A stretch of 64,000 nt of DNA from Lentzea indica (GTDB taxonomy: Bacteria > Actinomycetota > Actinomycetes > Mycobacteriales > Pseudonocardiaceae). The notes beneath the pieces are model-generated. The model did not search any database. It saw only the letters and a list, made by a program, of their open reading frames with translations, and was not told the DNA's origin. The position numbers and the translations under genes are program-made. Positions 7,552-14,650 of the stretch are shown piece after piece (the first letter of the stretch is position 1; each line of letters begins with the position of its first letter). The stretch is taken from NCBI RefSeq assembly GCF_012184385.1, contig NZ_VSRL01000013.1, forward strand, positions 1 to 64,000, written 5' to 3'.

Positions 7552-8343
7552 ATGAGCACCTCAGCTGTGCAGACTGCAGTGTCGTTGGCGGCCGCTCACG
7601 GTGTGGTTTCCACGGACCCTGTCGTGCTGAAGGACGGCAGCAACGTCATCGTGCACCTGCGCCCGGCCCCTGTCGTCGCTCGCATCGCCTCCCGCACGGC
7701 CCTGGTGCGCCCGTCCGTGGCCGTTCACCTGGCCCGAGACCTCTCGGTGTCGGCCTTCCTGGCCTCACGGGGCGTGCCGGTCGTGACGCCTTCGGCTGAG
7801 CTGCCCGCGGGGCCTCACACGGCTGACGGGTTCGTGCTCACGTTCAGCACGTACGTCCCGCACGACCCCTCGGTGGAACTGACGCGCCCCGACGTGCTCA
7901 AGATGCTGCCCGCCCTGCACGCCGAGCTGCGGCTGTACGAAGGCGAGTTGCCGGTGCGCGGCCCCATGGACGACGTCGAGAACACGCTCGAGTACCTGGA
8001 GGGCCTCGGCGTGCCCGATTTGGAGCCCTTCCGCGAACGCCACGCCGAGCTGCTGGCCGAATGGGACGTGCACTACAACGACGTCCAGCCGCTGCACGGC
8101 GACTCGCACTACGGGAACCTGCTGATGACCCCGTCCGGCCCGGTGTGGAACGACTTCGAGGACACGTGGCGCGGCCCCGTGGCGTGGGACCTGGCGTGCC
8201 TGGCCGGCGCCAGAGGCGAAGAAGCCGCCCAGCGCGCCGTGGAGATCTACGGCGGCGGGGCGGCTTCTGAAGACGTGGAGTTCCACGTCGAAACCCGCAT
8301 CAACTTCGGCACGCTGTGGGGCGTGCTGATGGAACGGAGTTAG
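7552..8343 (+). CDS. Aminoglycoside phosphotransferase-fold (APH) kinase family protein
   Basis: A 263-residue protein with the APH/choline-kinase fold. The Brenner-type catalytic loop is LHGDSHYGNLLMTPSG (near residue 180), where HGDxHxxN holds the catalytic Asp, followed by the metal-binding segment WNDFEDTWRGPVAWDLACL (DFG-equivalent Asp). The N-terminal lobe has VVLKDGSNVIVHLRPAPVVARI, with a weak lysine region. Targets of such proteins range from antibiotics to small alcohols, and none can be assigned here. It follows the DUF305 gene by 16 nt and is convergent with the LAxTG gene, overlapping it by 4 nt. Confidence 0.85.
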   Translation: MSTSAVQTAVSLAAAHGVVSTDPVVLKDGSNVIVHLRPAPVVARIASRTALVRPSVAVHLARDLSVSAFLASRGVPVVTPSAELPAGPHTADGFVLTFSTYVPHDPSVELTRPDVLKMLPALHAELRLYEGELPVRGPMDDVENTLEYLEGLGVPDLEPFRERHAELLAEWDVHYNDVQPLHGDSHYGNLLMTPSGPVWNDFEDTWRGPVAWDLACLAGARGEEAAQRAVEIYGGGAASEDVEFHVETRINFGTLWGVLMERS

Positions 8344-9041
8344 GCGCGGCGCCTGCGCAGCACGAGCAGCACGGCGGCACCGGCGGCGAGGAGCGCCGCA
8401 CCGAGACCGACGAGCCAGGCGGACCCGAAACCGGTCGAGGCCAGGTTGTCCTCGTTGACGACCGGCGCGACCGCGGCCGTCGTGGTCGTGGTGACCGCGA
8501 CCTCGGAGGACGACACGGTGGTCGAGGCGGACGTCGGAGCCGAGCTCGACGACGACGTGGAGGTCGAGGTGGAGGTCGACGACGAGGGGGTCACGCTGCT
8601 GCTCGGCGTCTCGTCCTCGATGCCGCAGCCGTACCAGTGACTGATCTGCGCCTGCTGACCGCCCTCGTTGAACGGGGAGCGCAGCTCGTTCCACGGCAAC
8701 GGGCCGAGGTCCTTGGCGAGGTAGACGTTGAAGTTGGGCCCGCCCTTGACGACCACACCGGTGACCGTCAGCCCGGCGGGCACGCCGGTGACGTTGAGGT
8801 AGATCTCGTTGTCCCCGCCGGTGTAGGTGAACTCGCTCGGGTGGATCGTCTCCCCGGTCAGCCCGCCAACGGTGCAGGCCTCAGGATGGTTGATGTCGAC
8901 GTTCTTGGTGTACGGAGTCGCGCGCTTGTCGTCCGTGGTCGGCGCTTGGGCGGAAGCGGTGCTCGTCAGGGCGAGCGTGGCCACAGCGGCCGCTGCGGCG
9001 GAAGCGAGCAGGCCGGTTCTTCTCAGGGGCGTCAGGCGCAT
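8340..9041 (-). CDS. Secreted LAxTG-anchored surface protein
   Basis: A 233-residue exported protein. Residues 1-31 form a Sec signal peptide (basic MRLTPLRRTG, an Ala-rich core, AQA cleavage). A folded region of about 110 residues with two cysteines follows, then a low-complexity Ser/Thr stretch (about 140-190, a likely O-glycosylated stalk). The C-terminal sorting signal is LASTG, a membrane helix and RRRRA. LAxTG is the class E sortase motif of high-GC actinobacteria, so the protein is probably attached to peptidoglycan. No sortase gene lies in the window. The function of the folded part is unknown. Confidence 0.85.
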   Translation of the reverse strand: MRLTPLRRTGLLASAAAAAVATLALTSTASAQAPTTDDKRATPYTKNVDINHPEACTVGGLTGETIHPSEFTYTGGDNEIYLNVTGVPAGLTVTGVVVKGGPNFNVYLAKDLGPLPWNELRSPFNEGGQQAQISHWYGCGIEDETPSSSVTPSSSTSTSTSTSSSSSAPTSASTTVSSSEVAVTTTTTAAVAPVVNEDNLASTGFGSAWLVGLGAALLAAGAAVLLVLRRRRA

Positions 9042-9450: not shown

Positions 9451-9636
9451 TCAGCTCTGGCGCCCATCTGCGGGCTTCGTGTAGACCGTGCCACCGGTGG
9501 GCATCCGCCTGAACCAGGAAACAGGGGTGACCGGCTGGCCGATCACCGGGCCCACCCCGGTCGCAGGGTGGGGAACAGGCACGCCGGCGTTCTGCGGGAA
9601 CTGCTGCCGGCGAAGAGGCTGGTTCGGGGTGGTCAT
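9451..9636 (-). CDS. Small Pro/Gln-rich peptide with WFRRMPTGG core (putative RiPP precursor A1)
   Basis: A 61-residue peptide. An N-terminal Pro/Gln/Val-rich stretch lacks a signal peptide and is followed by WFRRMPTGGTVYTKPADG (residues 41-58). A second peptide at 14507-14650 has the same core, WFRRMPTGGGTVHVRSAD, although the two N-terminal parts differ. A conserved core behind a variable segment, together with the gene's position 21 nt downstream of a HExxH peptide-modification enzyme, makes it a candidate substrate of that enzyme. GAAGGAATC before the ATG is a good ribosome site. The family was not recognised. It could instead be a small protein of a conflict or signalling system. The coding call is well supported by the paralogue; the precursor role is inference. 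Confidence 0.7.
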   Translation of the reverse strand: MTTPNQPLRRQQFPQNAGVPVPHPATGVGPVIGQPVTPVSWFRRMPTGGTVYTKPADGRQS

Positions 9637-9657
9637 GATTCCTTCTCGGGAGGCGAC

Positions 9658-10950
9658 TTAATGTGCTTGGCCGGACAGCCCGACGAGTGACGAACGCTGA
9701 AGCGAACCGAGTGCCATTTCCAGCCTCGCCGCCGCTGTGGCGGAGTCGACCTGCCATTCCTCGGTTGCCCGGGTGAGCATCCACCCGAACGTTTTCGGCG
9801 TTCTATCGTTACGCCACTGGTCCAGAGCCCAGCTCGCGTCCTCGTCGAGCCAGAAGACTTCAGGCGGTTGTGCCGCCCTGCCCGCCACCACACGTCCCGT
9901 GGCCGCGCACTTGTACCGCACGTCCGGGAGCAGGTGAAAATGGCTGTCTTCTGAAATCTCCAGGGATAGTGTCACACCGTCCACTTGCGACGGCACAACA
10001 CCCTCACCAGTGAGTTCCATCGTGTCGCCCATCAGGGCGTGCAAGAGCCAGCGCGCGTCCGCACGCAGGTCGTTTTCGTGCGTGACCAACCACTCGCCGA
10101 TCTCGTCGGCCCGTTCACTTGCTTTCGGCAGCAATGAATCAGGGCCGAGTCGTTCGGCGCCAATTGAGGTGTTGAACTGCGCGAGGCAGCTGTAGGCGTG
10201 CCAAGCCGCGAACGTCTGTTCCAGTGGCCACTGCACGTGCGACCACGAAGTCTCGAAATAATCCGCGTCCTCAGCCCTCGCGTCAAGAAATTCTTTCACG
10301 ATGGCGAGGTCGAAGAACTTTTCGTGCGCACCCTCGTGCACCAACGCCTCGGCGACCTCCATCGGCAGCGAGGGCTCGTCGATCAGCACGATGCCGGGGA
10401 CGTACCGCGACGACGCCGAGACGAGACCACCAGAGGTCTCCCGCTTGAGCACCGCGACCAACGACACGTGCGCGAGCAGGTCGTCAGCCATGGCCGGCGC
10501 CAGTTCGCGGAACATCCGGACGCCGGCTGCCACGATCGCAAGCGCGTTGTCGAACCTCTCACCATCCGACTCGGTGAGCGGCAACGGCCGGACACCAGAT
10601 TGAGCAACGATGCGCAGCGGGGCCTCGAGCACCTCGGCTGCCAGCGGATCTGCGGCCACGGCGACACCGGCGTCGCGCACGCGCATCTCCGCGATCTCGT
10701 TCAGCCGCTCCGGATCCAGGCCACCGTGCCCCGCGAGCGCCCTGCCGATCTCGTAGCGGACGATCGGGTGGTCCGCGAGGTTGTCGGACAACTCGGTGCC
10801 GGGCGCGAACAGGTCGACCGCGAGCCGGTAGAGGGTGCGTCGCTCGTCCACCAACGAGGACGCAGGAGCGAGCACCGCATGCATCGCATGCGTGCTCGCA
10901 GCGGGCGTACCCATCACCGAAGACCCCGTACTCACGTCCCCCGACGCCAT
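9658..10950 (-). CDS. HExxH motif-containing putative peptide modification protein (alpha-KG-HExxH type)
   Basis: A protein of up to 430 residues without signal peptide or membrane helix. The centre carries EALVHEGAHEKFF (HExxH at about 205-209) and, downstream, FAAWHAYSCLAQF, which would supply a further metal ligand. This layout matches the HEXXH putative peptide modification family (TIGR04267), members of which are now described as 2-oxoglutarate-dependent peptide beta-hydroxylases in RiPP pathways. No protease-type third-ligand motif of the gluzincins is obvious. The peptide gene A1 follows by 21 nt. The true start is uncertain: ATG 10950 has no clear ribosome site, and GTG 10935 (preceded by GGGGGAC) or ATG 10914 are alternatives. 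No radical SAM or transporter gene is adjacent. Confidence 0.75.
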   Translation of the reverse strand: MASGDVSTGSSVMGTPAASTHAMHAVLAPASSLVDERRTLYRLAVDLFAPGTELSDNLADHPIVRYEIGRALAGHGGLDPERLNEIAEMRVRDAGVAVAADPLAAEVLEAPLRIVAQSGVRPLPLTESDGERFDNALAIVAAGVRMFRELAPAMADDLLAHVSLVAVLKRETSGGLVSASSRYVPGIVLIDEPSLPMEVAEALVHEGAHEKFFDLAIVKEFLDARAEDADYFETSWSHVQWPLEQTFAAWHAYSCLAQFNTSIGAERLGPDSLLPKASERADEIGEWLVTHENDLRADARWLLHALMGDTMELTGEGVVPSQVDGVTLSLEISEDSHFHLLPDVRYKCAATGRVVAGRAAQPPEVFWLDEDASWALDQWRNDRTPKTFGWMLTRATEEWQVDSATAAARLEMALGSLQRSSLVGLSGQAH

Positions 10951-11045
10951 GGAGTCATGGGCCCCACCACACCAGCGGCGCCCTGATGGCGCGCAACTTT
11001 AGAGCACACCGCGGCCTGCACAACACGTGGATCCCCCCAGAAATG

Positions 11046-11090
11046 CCGGTGCCCCGATCCGCGCCGGGAAGACGCGAACCGGGGCACCGG
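11046..11090 (-). terminator. Hairpin after the 50-residue membrane peptide
   Basis: CCGGTGCCCCG (11046-11056) and CGGGGCACCGG (11080-11090) form a perfect 11-bp inverted repeat beginning 14 nt downstream of the small membrane peptide stop. It would separate that gene from the HExxH gene, unless it acts as an attenuator. Confidence 0.6.
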
Positions 11091-11104
11091 GTTGGTTCTG
11101 TCCA

Positions 11105-11257
11105 TCAGCCGAACATGATGCTGGCGACGTTCACGAAGCCGACGACGGCCAGCGCGACGACCGAGACGGCGATCATCGTGATCACGGTGCGCCAGCCGAT
11201 GGCGGTGACGGCGACTGCTACGGCGGCGGCGATTCCGAGTGCACTCCCTGCGGACAT
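11105..11257 (-). CDS. Small two-helix membrane peptide, 50 aa
   Basis: The minus-strand frame from ATG 11257 encodes 50 residues, almost all hydrophobic: SAGSALGIAAAVAVAVTAIG, then GWRTVITM and a second helix AVSVVALAVVGFVNVASIMFG. A strong ribosome site, GGGAGGGAACGAG, precedes the ATG and a hairpin follows the stop, so it looks real. The two-helix topology with a WR turn is reminiscent of small transporter or holin-like peptides, but I do not recognise a family. It is divergent from the GntR gene, sharing a 155-nt operator region, and lies upstream of the HExxH gene on the same strand. Confidence 0.65.
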   Translation of the reverse strand: MSAGSALGIAAAVAVAVTAIGWRTVITMIAVSVVALAVVGFVNVASIMFG

Positions 11258-11343
11258 CTCGTTCCCTCCCGACTAGGTGGCCCGGCCTCCTGGGTGTGGG
11301 CGGTCCCAGGCGTCCACCTGGTAGAAGGATCTCGTGTTGTAGG

Positions 11344-11384
11344 TTGTCTGTCAACGGTCGCCAGGTTGCCAGACAAGTTGCAAC
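11344..11384. promoter_or_regulatory. Putative GntR operator region
   Basis: Between the divergent membrane-peptide and GntR genes lie TTGTCTG (11344-11350) and its inverse CAGACAA (11370-11376), 19 bp apart, followed by the palindrome GTTGCAAC (11377-11384). The region starts 29 nt before the GntR ATG. Autoregulation and control of the divergent operon are inferred. Confidence 0.5.
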
Positions 11385-11412
11385 CAGACTGCGATAGGCC
11401 TAAACTGGACCA

Positions 11413-12210
11413 ATGCCCGCCGACGACGCACATCCTGGCGAGAGCTGGTCGCTCTCGCCTGATTCTCGACGGCCACTGCCGGAGCTGATCGAGCAAAAGC
11501 TCCGCGAGCAGATCATCGGCGGCACTCTCAAGGCGGGCGACCGCCTCCCCACCGAGCCGGAACTGGCACGCAAACTGGATGTCGCCCGGTCGTCGCTGCG
11601 TACAGCGCTTCAGCGGCTGCAGCTCCAGGGCATCGTCGAGGTGCGCCGTGGCCTCGGCTGGTACGTGCGCCGCACCGACCTGGCCGCTGTCGAGGAACAC
11701 CTCGAGGGCAGACTCGCTGCAAGGCAGTTCTCCCAGACGGACCTGCTGGAAGTGCGTATCGCCCTGGAGACCACGGCCGCGAGCCTCGCGGCGGTTCGCG
11801 CCGGTGACGGTGAGCTCGACGAACTGGCCAAGCTGAACCGCCGCTACCAGCGCGCGCCTGTCGAGGACATGCAGGAAGTGATCGAATCGGACGAGGAGTT
11901 CCACTCGGCACTGGTACGCGCGTCGCACAACGAGTTGCTGGAGCAGATGTACCAGGCGCTCGTGCCCGGCCTGCAGGACTGCAAGCGGCACGCGCACCCG
12001 TCCCGCGAGGTGCACAACCGTTCCGCGAACGAGCACGAGCAGGTCATCTGGTTCCTCCGGCGCCACGACGAGGTCGGCTCCAAGAGCGCGATGACCACTC
12101 ACCTGCTGGGTCTGTACAACGACGTGGCCACCGACGACACACAGCCGAGAGCCACCCTCAGCACGTACGTGGGGGTGTCAGACAACCCCATCTGGGGAAA
12201 GTCGCGCTGA
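11413..12210 (+). CDS. GntR-family (FadR-type) transcriptional regulator
   Basis: A 265-residue cytosolic DNA-binding protein. The N-terminal winged helix-turn-helix reads LIEQKLREQIIGGTLKAGDR, LPTEPELARKLDVARSSLRT, ALQRLQLQGIVEVRRGLGWYV, a textbook GntR domain. The C-terminal alpha-helical ligand domain (about 100-240) carries the FCD-type signature LLEVRIALETTAASLAA, SDEEFHSALVRASHNELL and a late histidine in HEQVI, which in FCD proteins bind a metal and a small organic acid. Divergent to the membrane peptide and HExxH genes and 90 nt before the next gene, it is the likely regulator of this region. Confidence 0.9.
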   Translation: MPADDAHPGESWSLSPDSRRPLPELIEQKLREQIIGGTLKAGDRLPTEPELARKLDVARSSLRTALQRLQLQGIVEVRRGLGWYVRRTDLAAVEEHLEGRLAARQFSQTDLLEVRIALETTAASLAAVRAGDGELDELAKLNRRYQRAPVEDMQEVIESDEEFHSALVRASHNELLEQMYQALVPGLQDCKRHAHPSREVHNRSANEHEQVIWFLRRHDEVGSKSAMTTHLLGLYNDVATDDTQPRATLSTYVGVSDNPIWGKSR

Positions 12211-12300
12211 TACGGCATGAGCCGAAAGGGTCTGGCGCTGACCCCGGCATCACTCCCACCATGTATGAACAGTTCGGTGGAGTGAGGGGGCGGCGATCAG

Positions 12301-13437
12301 GTGGTGGTGGCGCGCAGGGAAAAACAGGCGCTGGCCGTCGCCGGGTTGCTGATCCTGATCGCGGCGGCCGACCTGACCGCGGTGCTGCTCTGGCAACCGA
12401 CCTCGCGGATTCTGGCCCATGACGTGCTGGTCGTGCTGTGGCCGTTGCCGGCACTGGCGGGTTTCCTGCTAGGTGCCTACGAACTGTTCCTGCACCAGCG
12501 GCTGGTCAACGAGATGGGCCGCATCTCCGGTCCTGGCATCGTGGAGCACCTGCTGCCGAGCGAGGTGCTGCGGACGTTCCTGTCCAGGATCTACGGCAGC
12601 GGACAGCAGAACGACGATGTGGTGTCCGGTGTGCTCGGCGGCAGCGGCATGCACCCCAAGGGCGACGACCTGACGATCAGCACGCGCACGAGGGTACGGC
12701 TCGAACTGCAAGGTGTGGACACCAAGACGTACCACCTGACCACGACCCAGAGCCACCAGTTCCGGCACAGCGTTCCAGTCGATCGGTTCGTCATCTTCGC
12801 CACCAGCAACGCCCTGCTGCGCGACACGATCAGCGCCGCGTGCCGCTTCCCGCTGTTCGAGCTCTACTTCATGCCGGACGCGTCGCTGTTCCTCGACTCG
12901 GTCGACGACATCCGCGACTCGACGAAGATCACGATCGACTACCTCGACCACGACGACCAACGCCGGTCAGCGGAGCCGAGCCAGATCCCGCCGGTCGAGG
13001 TCAGGTTCGACCAGTGGGCGAACTACCTGACCTTCTTCCGCGAGGCGATGGCCCCGCTGCCGAAACTCAGTCCTCTCGACCACATGAGCGACCTGCGAAT
13101 CCTGGAGTGCGACCTCAGCGGGATCGCCGACGACCACGTCGTGCGCTCGATCCTCGGCCTGACTGTGTCATCACGTTCGCTGCAGCGCACCAACGACGGT
13201 TTCGCGTACTGGCAGTCTCCCTACCCGTCCTATGTGGACACCATAAGTTTCGATGCGACCGAGCTCGCCGTCGACCACTCGCCCGGCCACGAGTTCCGCA
13301 TCATGCCGTTCACGTTCAGGTCCGGTACCGAAGCGGCGCAGTGGCTGCGCGCGGACCAGTTGGGCGACCTGGACGTCCGGTCGTGGATGCTGCCGGGACA
13401 CGGCGTGGCGCTGCTGTGGCGGGAAGCCCGCCGCTGA
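12301..13437 (+). CDS. Membrane-anchored protein of unknown function (paralogue P1)
   Basis: A 378-residue protein with two N-terminal membrane helices (about 10-30 and 40-62) and a long soluble domain. I do not recognise a family. It is distantly related to the 347-codon gene converging on it at 13454-14497. Both share two N-terminal helices, a central stretch with SAACxxLFE-like spacing (SAACRFPLFELYF here, SAACPQLFEV there), an aromatic segment (FAYWQSPYPSYVDTISFDAT against FIYWYADRPMFIRSITVDVR) and the end GHGVALLW (GQGVVAVW there). GTG 12301 starts the frame, with GGAGTGAGGGGG about 12 nt upstream. It follows the GntR gene in the same direction. An accessory role with the peptide/HExxH genes is only inferred from position. 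Confidence 0.65.
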   Translation: MVVARREKQALAVAGLLILIAAADLTAVLLWQPTSRILAHDVLVVLWPLPALAGFLLGAYELFLHQRLVNEMGRISGPGIVEHLLPSEVLRTFLSRIYGSGQQNDDVVSGVLGGSGMHPKGDDLTISTRTRVRLELQGVDTKTYHLTTTQSHQFRHSVPVDRFVIFATSNALLRDTISAACRFPLFELYFMPDASLFLDSVDDIRDSTKITIDYLDHDDQRRSAEPSQIPPVEVRFDQWANYLTFFREAMAPLPKLSPLDHMSDLRILECDLSGIADDHVVRSILGLTVSSRSLQRTNDGFAYWQSPYPSYVDTISFDATELAVDHSPGHEFRIMPFTFRSGTEAAQWLRADQLGDLDVRSWMLPGHGVALLWREARR

Positions 13438-13453
13438 AGTCGGACGCCGCGAG

Positions 13454-14497
13454 TCACCACACCGCCACGACGCCCTGCCCCTGCACCACCCAGCGGTCCA
13501 GCCTCGTCGACAGATGCCCCTCATCCGTATCAAGCATCAACGAGTCGAGACCGCCGAGAAACGCGTGCACGACCACCTCACGTTTGCCGATCCGCAGCAG
13601 TTCGCGCACGTCCACGGTGATGCTGCGGATGAACATCGGCCTGTCGGCGTACCAGTAGATGAAGTGCTCTTTCAGATCCTGCGACCAGTGGAAGTACTGG
13701 CGCACGCGCACGAGCTCGGTGCTCTCCTGGCTCAGGTCGGCGACGAAGAGCGCGAGTTCGGAGGTCGCCATCCCGACCGGCGGTGAAATGTACTGCCGCA
13801 ACGCGTTCGCCGGCACCCTGCGGAACTCCACCCGCCTCGCCCCTCCACGCGGCGGCTCGACATAACATTCGAGCTGCTCTCCGTACGCCTTCACCGCCTC
13901 GTTGAAGGGGACAAGCCGTGGCAACGCGGTGACCTCGAACAGCTGCGGGCACGCCGCGGACAGCGCGGCCGAGTGCGTTGGCGACGTGGTGGCCGCGATC
14001 AGGATCAGCCCGCGCGGCATGGTCATCTCGAGCAGGTTTCCGACGTGCACGATGTCGCCGTCGACGCGCTCGACCCGCAGCGCCATCGACACTTCGTTGT
14101 AGGCAGGTCGCGGCGACAGCACCAGCGACACGAGCGAGGACTTGTCGGCCGCGTGTGGCATGTGCCGATCCAGTGCGGTCGCGGCGAGTTCCTCCGGTGA
14201 GGTCGAGTCCAGCACCAGCTGCCGGACCGCCGGTGCGGTCGCGGCGCGCAGGTCGTCGAGCTTGCGGTCGATGCCGCGCAACAACTCGCTGTGCTCCCTG
14301 GTGCGGACCCACTCGAAGTAGATCGAGATGAGCAGCACCAGCACCAGGTCCTTGGTGATGGAACCGAGGCTCCGGCCGACCGCGTCGCCGGCCTAGGGAT
14401 TCAGCACCGCGGACACGACGATCCTGGGCACCGGCGTGTTGATCAGTGCGATTGTTGCGAGCAGGCTGCCGAAGTAGACGAGCACACGCGACCGCAT
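13454..14497 (-). pseudogene. Membrane-anchored protein (paralogue P2) with in-frame TAG codon
   Basis: The frame from ATG 14497 encodes RSRVLVYFGSLLATIALINT and continues to VVSAVLNP, then meets TAG at codon 35 (14395-14393). It stays open in the same frame (AGDAVGRSLGSITKDLVLVL, second helix) for 313 further codons to the stop at 13454. The part after TAG is the conserved domain shared with paralogue P1. A CAG-to-TAG change is the simplest cause. Translation might also restart at GTG 14344, giving 296 residues with one helix, or TAG might be read through. The ATG lies 9 nt after the peptide gene A2 (AGGTG ribosome site), so A2 and P2 form an operon. Function unknown. Confidence 0.65.
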
Positions 14498-14506
14498 GGC
14501 ACCTGA

Positions 14507-14650
14507 TCAGTCGGCGGACCGCACGTGGACCGTGCCGCCTCCAGTCGGCATGCGACGGAACCAGTCAACTCCTTGCACCGGACGCGGCGGCCAGCACGTG
14601 CGCTCAGGCGGCTGAGGAACGGGAGCGGGCTGGACTGGGTCGATGGCCAT
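14507..14650 (-). CDS. Small peptide with WFRRMPTGGG core (putative RiPP precursor A2)
   Basis: A 47-residue peptide starting at ATG 14650 with ribosome site GAGGGAGA. The Pro/Gln-rich first half (AIDPVQPAPVPQPPERTCWP) differs from peptide A1, but the end WFRRMPTGGGTVHVRSAD repeats the A1 core with one extra Gly. One Cys at residue 19 is outside the conserved part. It is directly followed by the membrane protein gene P2 (9 nt). Two small, separately placed genes conserving the same 10-12 residues strongly argue for a real and selected peptide. Being a substrate of the HExxH protein 3.5 kb away is a hypothesis. Confidence 0.7.
   Translation of the reverse strand: MAIDPVQPAPVPQPPERTCWPPRPVQGVDWFRRMPTGGGTVHVRSAD

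Follow-up and report, generated by a model that had tools for sequence, protein, structure and literature searches.

What does a lone HExxH enzyme do when it is encoded next to a peptide of 61 residues, and do the genes around the pair belong to the same system? The question is raised by a 64,000-nucleotide stretch of the Lentzea indica genome (contig NZ_VSRL01000013.1, positions 1 to 64,000, hereafter the window), in which positions 9,451 to 14,650 hold the enzyme gene, two small peptides with a common core (PEP1 and PEP2), a GntR regulator, a two-helix membrane peptide (TM2) and two membrane-anchored proteins (P1 and P2). A first-pass annotation, made from the letters of the window, had proposed here a minimal system of the kind that produces ribosomally synthesized and post-translationally modified peptides (RiPPs). 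Taken as a whole, sequence and structure models are best explained by a Pseudonocardiaceae-type cassette that would modify a short ribosomal peptide under GntR control, with the product retained and P1 acting as partner, and we lean towards this explanation with modest confidence.

The family of the enzyme and the place of the adjoining peptide both held up. The protein matches TIGR04267 with 68.8 bits (cut-off 40; E 5.6e-19) over residues 141-305 of its 430-residue form. Its listed open reading frame (ORF) covers 9658-10950 on the minus strand, and the ATG at 10914 is the more likely start rather than 10950 because two of 19 orthologues (L008 and L016) have stops upstream of that point; in the 418-residue form, HEGAH occupies residues 193-197. 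HE..H is retained in all 22 enzyme sequences chosen for alignment from five genera, and the HExxH motif is invariant in 20 of 20 aligned enzymes. An AlphaFold model from 20 sequences had as its rank-1 PDB match in Foldseek the HExxH domain of ChlB (8s5f; E 3.7e-7, query TM-score (TMq) 0.46, root-mean-square deviation (rmsd) 7.0), followed by SjiH (22ob, E 5.6e-4), and SjiH (22nu/22ob, E 9.1e-4) was also the only entry reached at E<=0.01 when PDB was searched with the enzyme sequence. By profile and by modelled fold, the protein is a member of the alpha-ketoglutarate/Fe(II) HExxH oxygenase family.

The PqqD fold is the fold of RiPP recognition elements (RREs). The enzyme model matches PqqD (5sxy) with probability 1.00, a target TM-score (TMt) of 0.72 and rmsd 2.9 over 94 columns at E 0.053, and model residues 325-413, arranged as strand-strand-strand-helices, are the sole stretch that fits it, a range that we infer, as it is absent from the match table. 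We predict a C-terminal PqqD-like (RRE) domain, for Lentzea only and at the level of the model. The genome also encodes a second TIGR04267 protein (a 680-residue ORF, L099:7569-9611), flanked, as seen by eye, by a helix-turn-helix-like gene on one side and a TPR/NB-ARC-like gene on the other; no WFRR peptide was found on that contig, and this locus may resemble clusters of the FxSxx type.

PEP2, reported earlier as a second peptide repeating the core, lies about 5 kb from PEP1, which itself begins 21 bases past the enzyme stop; in a pattern scan of the whole 9.97-Mb genome the core pattern is present exactly twice, and four further places have three mismatches each. Neither peptide has a family match in NCBIfam, Pfam or PHROGs. 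Thirty-eight peptides out of 20 Lentzea-type loci can be aligned; a few others, for example ones with a stop or at a second tandem position, are not included. The leader of enzyme-downstream peptides is mostly 40 residues long; the ATG has an AGAAGG-type ribosome site and lies, in most Lentzea-type PEP1 orthologues, 40 codons ahead of the core Trp. The two leaders had been called unrelated, which is not wholly the case: both are Pro-rich and close with PV..V, followed by one more residue and then the core. Pooled uncorrected ratios of nonsynonymous to synonymous differences (pN/pS) are 0.41 for PEP1 (n=20) and 0.50 for PEP2 (n=10), with neighbouring values of 0.38 for HExxH (20 sequences), 0.31 for P1 (12), 0.16 for TM2 (18) and 0.45 for P2 (7), so that PEP1 and PEP2 look to be under purifying selection. 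As judged from these comparisons, the peptide family is real and both peptides are genuine genes.

The possible chemistry is limited by the tally of cores, which comprises 77 cassette rows, 65 of them distinct. Among the distinct cores F10 and G16 are invariant (65/65), followed by P14 (64/65), T18 (62/65), V7 (61/65), G17 (59/65), R12 (58/65) and D8 (48/65), and a conserved His is absent from every core position. The consensus is V.[WF]F.R.P.GG.T[VAI][YF], the shared motif of the peptides reads WFRRMPxGGTVY, and the core profile gave only chance matches in PDB. Of the three hydroxylation types first considered for the core, those at His and Asp are unlikely since neither residue is conserved, and that at Pro is possible. 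Because Phe, Pro and GG are conserved while Asp and His are not, oxidation within the F.R.P.GGT stretch is favoured; we rank beta-hydroxylation of Phe or Pro first, with cleavage at Gly as its main chemical rival.

The second line of evidence is the company the enzyme keeps. Nineteen named loci carry an enzyme 62-80% identical to that of the window, 18 in Lentzea and one in a Nocardia sp., and all 19 of these Lentzea-type loci hold the enzyme, TM2, GntR, P1 and at least one enzyme-downstream peptide in the same synteny. Wider sampling took in 297 genomes of the family, 397 of the order and 394 of the class, sets that share some of their members; the family genomes also overlap with the named contigs (G051 and L022, for example, look like one genome), and their counts are therefore not to be added. 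The enzyme profile is found in 50 of the 297 family genomes at E<1e-40 and more weakly in five, and all 24 Lentzea genomes of this sample carry the enzyme. The full peptide profile is found in 48 family genomes and the core profile in 50 at E<1e-4, plus the borderline G220 (E 0.0032). The enzyme is present at E<1e-40 in 48 of the 50 core-profile genomes; in the other two the locus is interrupted by contig ends, G168 having the enzyme gene in two parts at two such ends and G102 showing no enzyme gene, with a contig end next to the peptide and another next to P1. Wherever a locus is readable whole, a small peptide with the core adjoins the enzyme, loosely so in genus g5.

Peptide homologues occurring widely without the enzyme had been named as the outcome that would speak against the system, and no clear case was found in the family, order and class samples. 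The order search for peptides gave 57 genomes at E<=0.1, of which all 11 at E<1e-8 are family genomes with the cassette; among the other 46, the 19 matches that we read are chance fragments, rejected as peptides from outside the family, and the remaining 27 are weaker. The class search returned two genomes, the own genome and one chance fragment, and a tblastn search of one core against 72,556 plasmid records found nothing convincing.

Besides Lentzea, the cassette is present in four genera of the family, here designated g26, g22, g3 and g5, the last with two enzyme-carrying genomes (G192 and G281). In g26 the flanking genes differ while P1-GntR-HExxH-PEP stay together, and TM2 is present in all loci read except L070. 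In g3 the genes GntR, P1, HExxH and PEP all run in one direction, and the candidate starts of the enzyme fall within P1 or at its end: the only one in L076 is 38 bases inside P1, and those in L075 are 23 or 53 bases ahead of the P1 end. In G182, a divergent genome from the same genus as the window, the HExxH-PEP pair (L077:9169-10413) is inverted relative to TM2-GntR-P1. We compared neighbours in 11 representative loci (10 cassette loci of the five genera and one of genus g42; ORFs of at least 80 residues, BLASTP E<=1e-12). The only genes common to all five cassette genera are GntR, P1 and HExxH, other widely shared ORFs overlapping these in different reading frames, and within the same limits no transporter, protease or radical S-adenosylmethionine (SAM) gene recurs. 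The minimal cluster first described, without such partners and with an HExxH enzyme tied to peptides, is thereby borne out across genera.

Control of the locus points in the same direction. The exact operator pair of the window occurs at a single place in the 9.97-Mb genome, between TM2 and GntR. In all 41 loci where the two genes stand head-to-head (23 Lentzea-type, 17 of g26 and one of g22), the intergenic region holds TTGTCTGTCAA and, 10-12 bases on, TTGNCNGACAA, with at most one mismatch per half; none of 8200 mononucleotide shuffles did, a control that does not remove locus relatedness. The g3 loci, with their co-directional genes, did not yield the strict form. A pair or single sites also lie ahead of GntR-P1 in four of five g42 loci (L218-L221), and the site therefore goes with GntR, which to judge from position and symmetry would bind it. 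Given that the pair stands between divergent arms in 41/41 loci of three genera, GntR-P1 and TM2-HExxH-PEP1 are probably one regulon. A third operator-like site near or in HExxH appears in 22 of the 41 loci; in Lentzea it coincides with LSDN codons and probably just reflects the coding sequence, so we discarded it, and in L058, L066, L067 and L069 it precedes the aligned portion of the gene.

The coordinates of all features are collected in the table below.

Table. Features of the cassette and its accessory genes in the window.
Feature	Position	Strand	Remarks
PEP1, 61-residue Pro-rich peptide, core VSWFRRMPTGGTVYTKP	9451..9636	-	candidate substrate of the HExxH enzyme; AGAAGG ribosome site
aKG-HExxH-type (alpha-ketoglutarate) peptide oxygenase, predicted C-terminal PqqD-like (RRE) domain	9658..10914	-	TIGR04267, model, Foldseek
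TM2, 50-residue two-helix membrane peptide, same strand as the enzyme and upstream of it	11105..11257	-	
Paired inverted operator TTGTCTGTCAA-N11-TTGCCAGACAA in divergent promoter region, likely GntR site	11344..11376	.	
GntR/FCD regulator	11413..12210	+	GntR 8.7e-18, FCD 2.8e-25
P1, membrane-anchored, N-terminal helices then soluble domain	12301..13437	+	no known family
P2, P1 paralogue mainly in Lentzea, apparently optional accessory	13454..14344	-	
PEP2, 47-residue second peptide, core VDWFRRMPTGGGTVHVR, apparently optional accessory	14507..14650	-	

TM2, the enzyme and PEP1 follow each other in minus-strand order, and GntR and P1 diverge from them on the plus strand. The intervening genes are those first described, including the relatedness of P1 and P2 (23% identity, E 5e-5, in a tblastn of P1 against the P2 of L007). 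The idea of one system stands for GntR-P1-TM2-HExxH-PEP1, through synteny across genera and the shared operator, and is weak for the other two. P2 is present in eight of the 19 Lentzea-type loci, in pieces in L011 and with a stop in L022 (a copy dropped from the P1/P2 alignment), and in the window an in-frame TAG stands at 14393-14395 of its longer frame. The upstream PEP2-type peptide is present in 15 of the 19, and the L016 copy has a stop at the core Trp. P2 and PEP2, erratic and almost confined to Lentzea, give the impression of extras that are optional or in decay.

The soluble domain of P1 is probably cytoplasmic, to judge by eye from the positive residues that follow its last helix. Fold searches with P1 were uninformative: its best PDB fold matches are large peptidases at TMq ~0.25, and its best BFVD match is an uncharacterised giant-virus protein at TMq 0.26. 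The P1 sequence had no PDB match at E<=0.1. A tblastn search found no TM2 in L070 or in any g3 or g5 locus. The synonymous divergence of TM2 is far below that of its neighbours (pS 0.217 vs 0.41-0.53, from different locus subsets), hinting at an extra constraint on DNA or RNA at 11105-11257. Adjoining PEP1, a gene at 8340-9041 encodes a Thr/Ser-rich surface protein with an LPXTG-type anchor; it is found in 18 of the 19 Lentzea-type loci and was not seen in the g26, g22, g3 and g5 loci read.

How the cassette might work can be set out in a few conditional steps. GntR would keep both arms repressed until it is released by a metabolite or signal. Binding of the peptide would then involve the RRE of the enzyme and the conserved V.WF segment, and the enzyme would oxidise a residue in the F.R.P.GGT stretch, most likely by beta-hydroxylation of Phe or Pro. 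Since nothing in the cassette exports or trims the peptide, the modified product may remain in or at the cell, where P1, in what is the least certain step, would be the membrane partner that uses it. Three features suggest that the cassette acts inside the cell rather than making a product for secretion: the enzyme is present in 24/24 sampled Lentzea genomes, the locus has an operator of its own, and no export genes are linked to it.

Several observations weigh against this reading. Confidence in the enzyme model is limited (mean pLDDT, the predicted local distance difference test, of 68.7), the Pfam PqqD profile reaches at best E 0.079 in two of 20 members, the RRE helices are shortened in g26 enzymes and the domain is missing in L085. 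G180, one of the five genomes with a weaker enzyme match, has a homologue (E 7.6e-15) without P1 or a visible peptide. The candidate peptides of g5 (WFRGGDRPVGGGGNTVF; WFDRSAGGGSTV) are divergent and were found by eye, the profile not detecting them. The case for retention in the cell comes solely from the absence of linked genes. P1 is found in 58 of the 297 family genomes, that is in all 52 with enzyme or peptide and in six more: GntR-P1 occurs without either in five g42 genomes and P1 with P2 alone in G089, and G242 has a second, lone P1 apart from its cassette. P1 therefore need not serve the peptide, and by gene content GntR-P1 is a wider module, the HExxH-PEP pair being seen only alongside it.

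Among the alternatives, an ordinary exported RiPP, whose precursor is modified by the cassette and finished by unlinked housekeeping proteases and transporters, would account for the RiPP-like layout of enzyme, predicted RRE and precursor, and for the two tandem peptides downstream of the enzyme in seven of the 19 Lentzea-type loci. We consider it possible and on balance unlikely: no transporter or protease is linked, no signal peptide or cleavage site was seen by eye in the peptides, and the constant synteny of the Lentzea-type loci resembles housekeeping more than a variable metabolite cluster.

The enzyme could also be its own release step. The residues hydroxylated by HExxH enzymes described so far are His, Asp, Phe, Gln and Pro (PMC12636437, PMC13060819, PMC12707348, PMC12257519), and two of these enzymes, PflC/PosC, cut the backbone at a small residue (PMC12636437). 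Alpha-hydroxylation of the invariant Gly of GG would break the backbone here and leave a C-terminally amidated, Pro-rich peptide ending ..WFRRMP(T/N), and cassettes would share no protease because the enzyme itself cleaves. The near-constancy of both Gly residues is as expected, and PosC partly cleaves its A91G variant, Ala and Gly being inferred to favour alpha-hydroxylation and cleavage (PMC12636437). However, the residues after GG are conserved too (T, then V/A/I, then mostly Y/F, often followed by K/R-P), which is odd for a discarded tail, and there is no ARMD-like site; sequence alone cannot tell cleavage from hydroxylation, and we hold this route to be rather improbable.

A further alternative comes from viral genomes, where the motif could serve as a short linear tag for recognition by the enzyme or by P1, and phages would bear it so as to be modified by the host system or to titrate that system. 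Extra core matches lie inside longer genes in three cassette-carrying family genomes (L068, L095 and L096), and PHROG matches mark prophages there: terminase, portal and a RecT-like protein in L095, terminase and portal in L096, and an antirepressor in L068. Pattern scans of IMG/VR gave 108 distinct frames, scored by matches at the unfixed conserved positions, a measure devised here that is descriptive since the positions were chosen after seeing the family; 102 frames score at most 4, six score 6-8 and none scores 5. The six are L102 (the L096 prophage protein), L101, L141, L173, L184 and L194, and the L068 prophage protein (L137) scores 4. Apart from 101 chance-like frames, the motif thus extends beyond the three prophages to five viral contigs, in four of them (L141, L173, L184 and L194) at the extreme N-terminus with the motif Phe 6-7 residues from a start codon. 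In the fifth, from a metagenome, an ORF with two full and one partial motif copies (L101:2855-3250) lies upstream of a TROVE/Ro60-type RNA-binding gene. L141:6436-6591 encodes 51 residues, starting MIKKVEIFQRMPTGGTVYEK, and is separated by two ORFs' distance from a DNA polymerase gene.

For two of the three prophages the own host's peptide scores best of 50 loci, by margins of 1-2 units; for the third, 25 of 50 loci outscore it, and host-specific mimicry is not claimed. All three prophages sit in cassette genomes, but every sampled Lentzea has the enzyme, so that a Lentzea prophage could hardly be found outside one, and L141, with 43% guanine plus cytosine over 10 kb, is far from actinobacterial base composition and unlikely to come from this bacterial family. 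HExxH, TM2, P1 and P2 match no PADLOC model, GntR giving only weak Csa3/CARF matches (best E 0.001). A host-phage interface of this kind seems to us very unlikely. As for a phage origin of the peptides, we rejected it as far as known records go: when 50,697 phage records were searched by tblastn with two cores and with three viral motif proteins, nothing convincing came up, as with the plasmids, and the IMG/VR profile scan confirmed no peptide relative, the pattern-scan matches being mostly chance. Equally doubtful is the combined proposal of a cytoplasmic, non-exported peptide-oxidation switch in which the enzyme, controlled by GntR, would mark a resident peptide, P1 would read it, and phage motif proteins would be oxidised by or saturate the host enzyme.

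That said, the recurrence of the motif in phage proteins raises the testable question of what reads it, and such a switch, if true, would be an oxygenase-based host-phage interface, for which no counterpart was found described in the literature searched; the passages of PMC11118758 retrieved by a term search mention neither HExxH nor phage-encoded precursors. The preferred reading, a regulated cassette that oxidises a retained peptide, has a nearer use. The reactions of HExxH enzymes are currently unpredictable according to the field's own authors (PMC13060819). The cassette is a candidate for a very small natural enzyme-substrate pair, and its dozens of orthologous pairs, varied in core and leader, make substrate rules directly testable.

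We found no description of the cassette in the literature searched, which mostly excluded subscription journals. PflC/PosC of Pseudomonas are alike in enzyme family, in a stand-alone HExxH enzyme and in a short precursor, whereas their clusters encode a fusion of a multinuclear non-heme iron-dependent oxidative enzyme (MNIO) with a nitroreductase, and their substrates have Gln runs and a C-terminal ARMD (PMC12636437). PesO of nitrilobacillin likewise combines an HExxH enzyme with two precursor peptides and hydroxylates the Pro just ahead of an Arg-containing motif; unlike the cassette, its cluster includes an MNIO, an asparagine-synthetase-like enzyme, M16 peptidases and a transporter, and its precursors end in R(V/T)DN (PMC13060819). 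BipH/BpmH of the biphenomycins, the latter predicted only, are HExxH beta-hydroxylases of actinobacterial RiPP clusters, but BipH works on an FRF core once MNIO, arginase and B12-radical SAM steps have taken place, and its pathway has a TldD-type protease (PMC12707348, PMC12257519). None of ARMD, RVDN and FRF is a conserved feature among the 65 distinct cores, and no MNIO-type partner gene recurs in the 11 loci. The closest solved fold, the ChlB HExxH domain (8s5f), is fused to a radical SAM enzyme and acts on cyclophane cores (as cited in PMC12636437), whereas the enzyme of the cassette stands without a linked radical SAM partner and has a predicted C-terminal PqqD-like domain. Set beside these systems, we rate the enzyme family as known, the peptide family and the partners as new, and the minimal layout as unusual.

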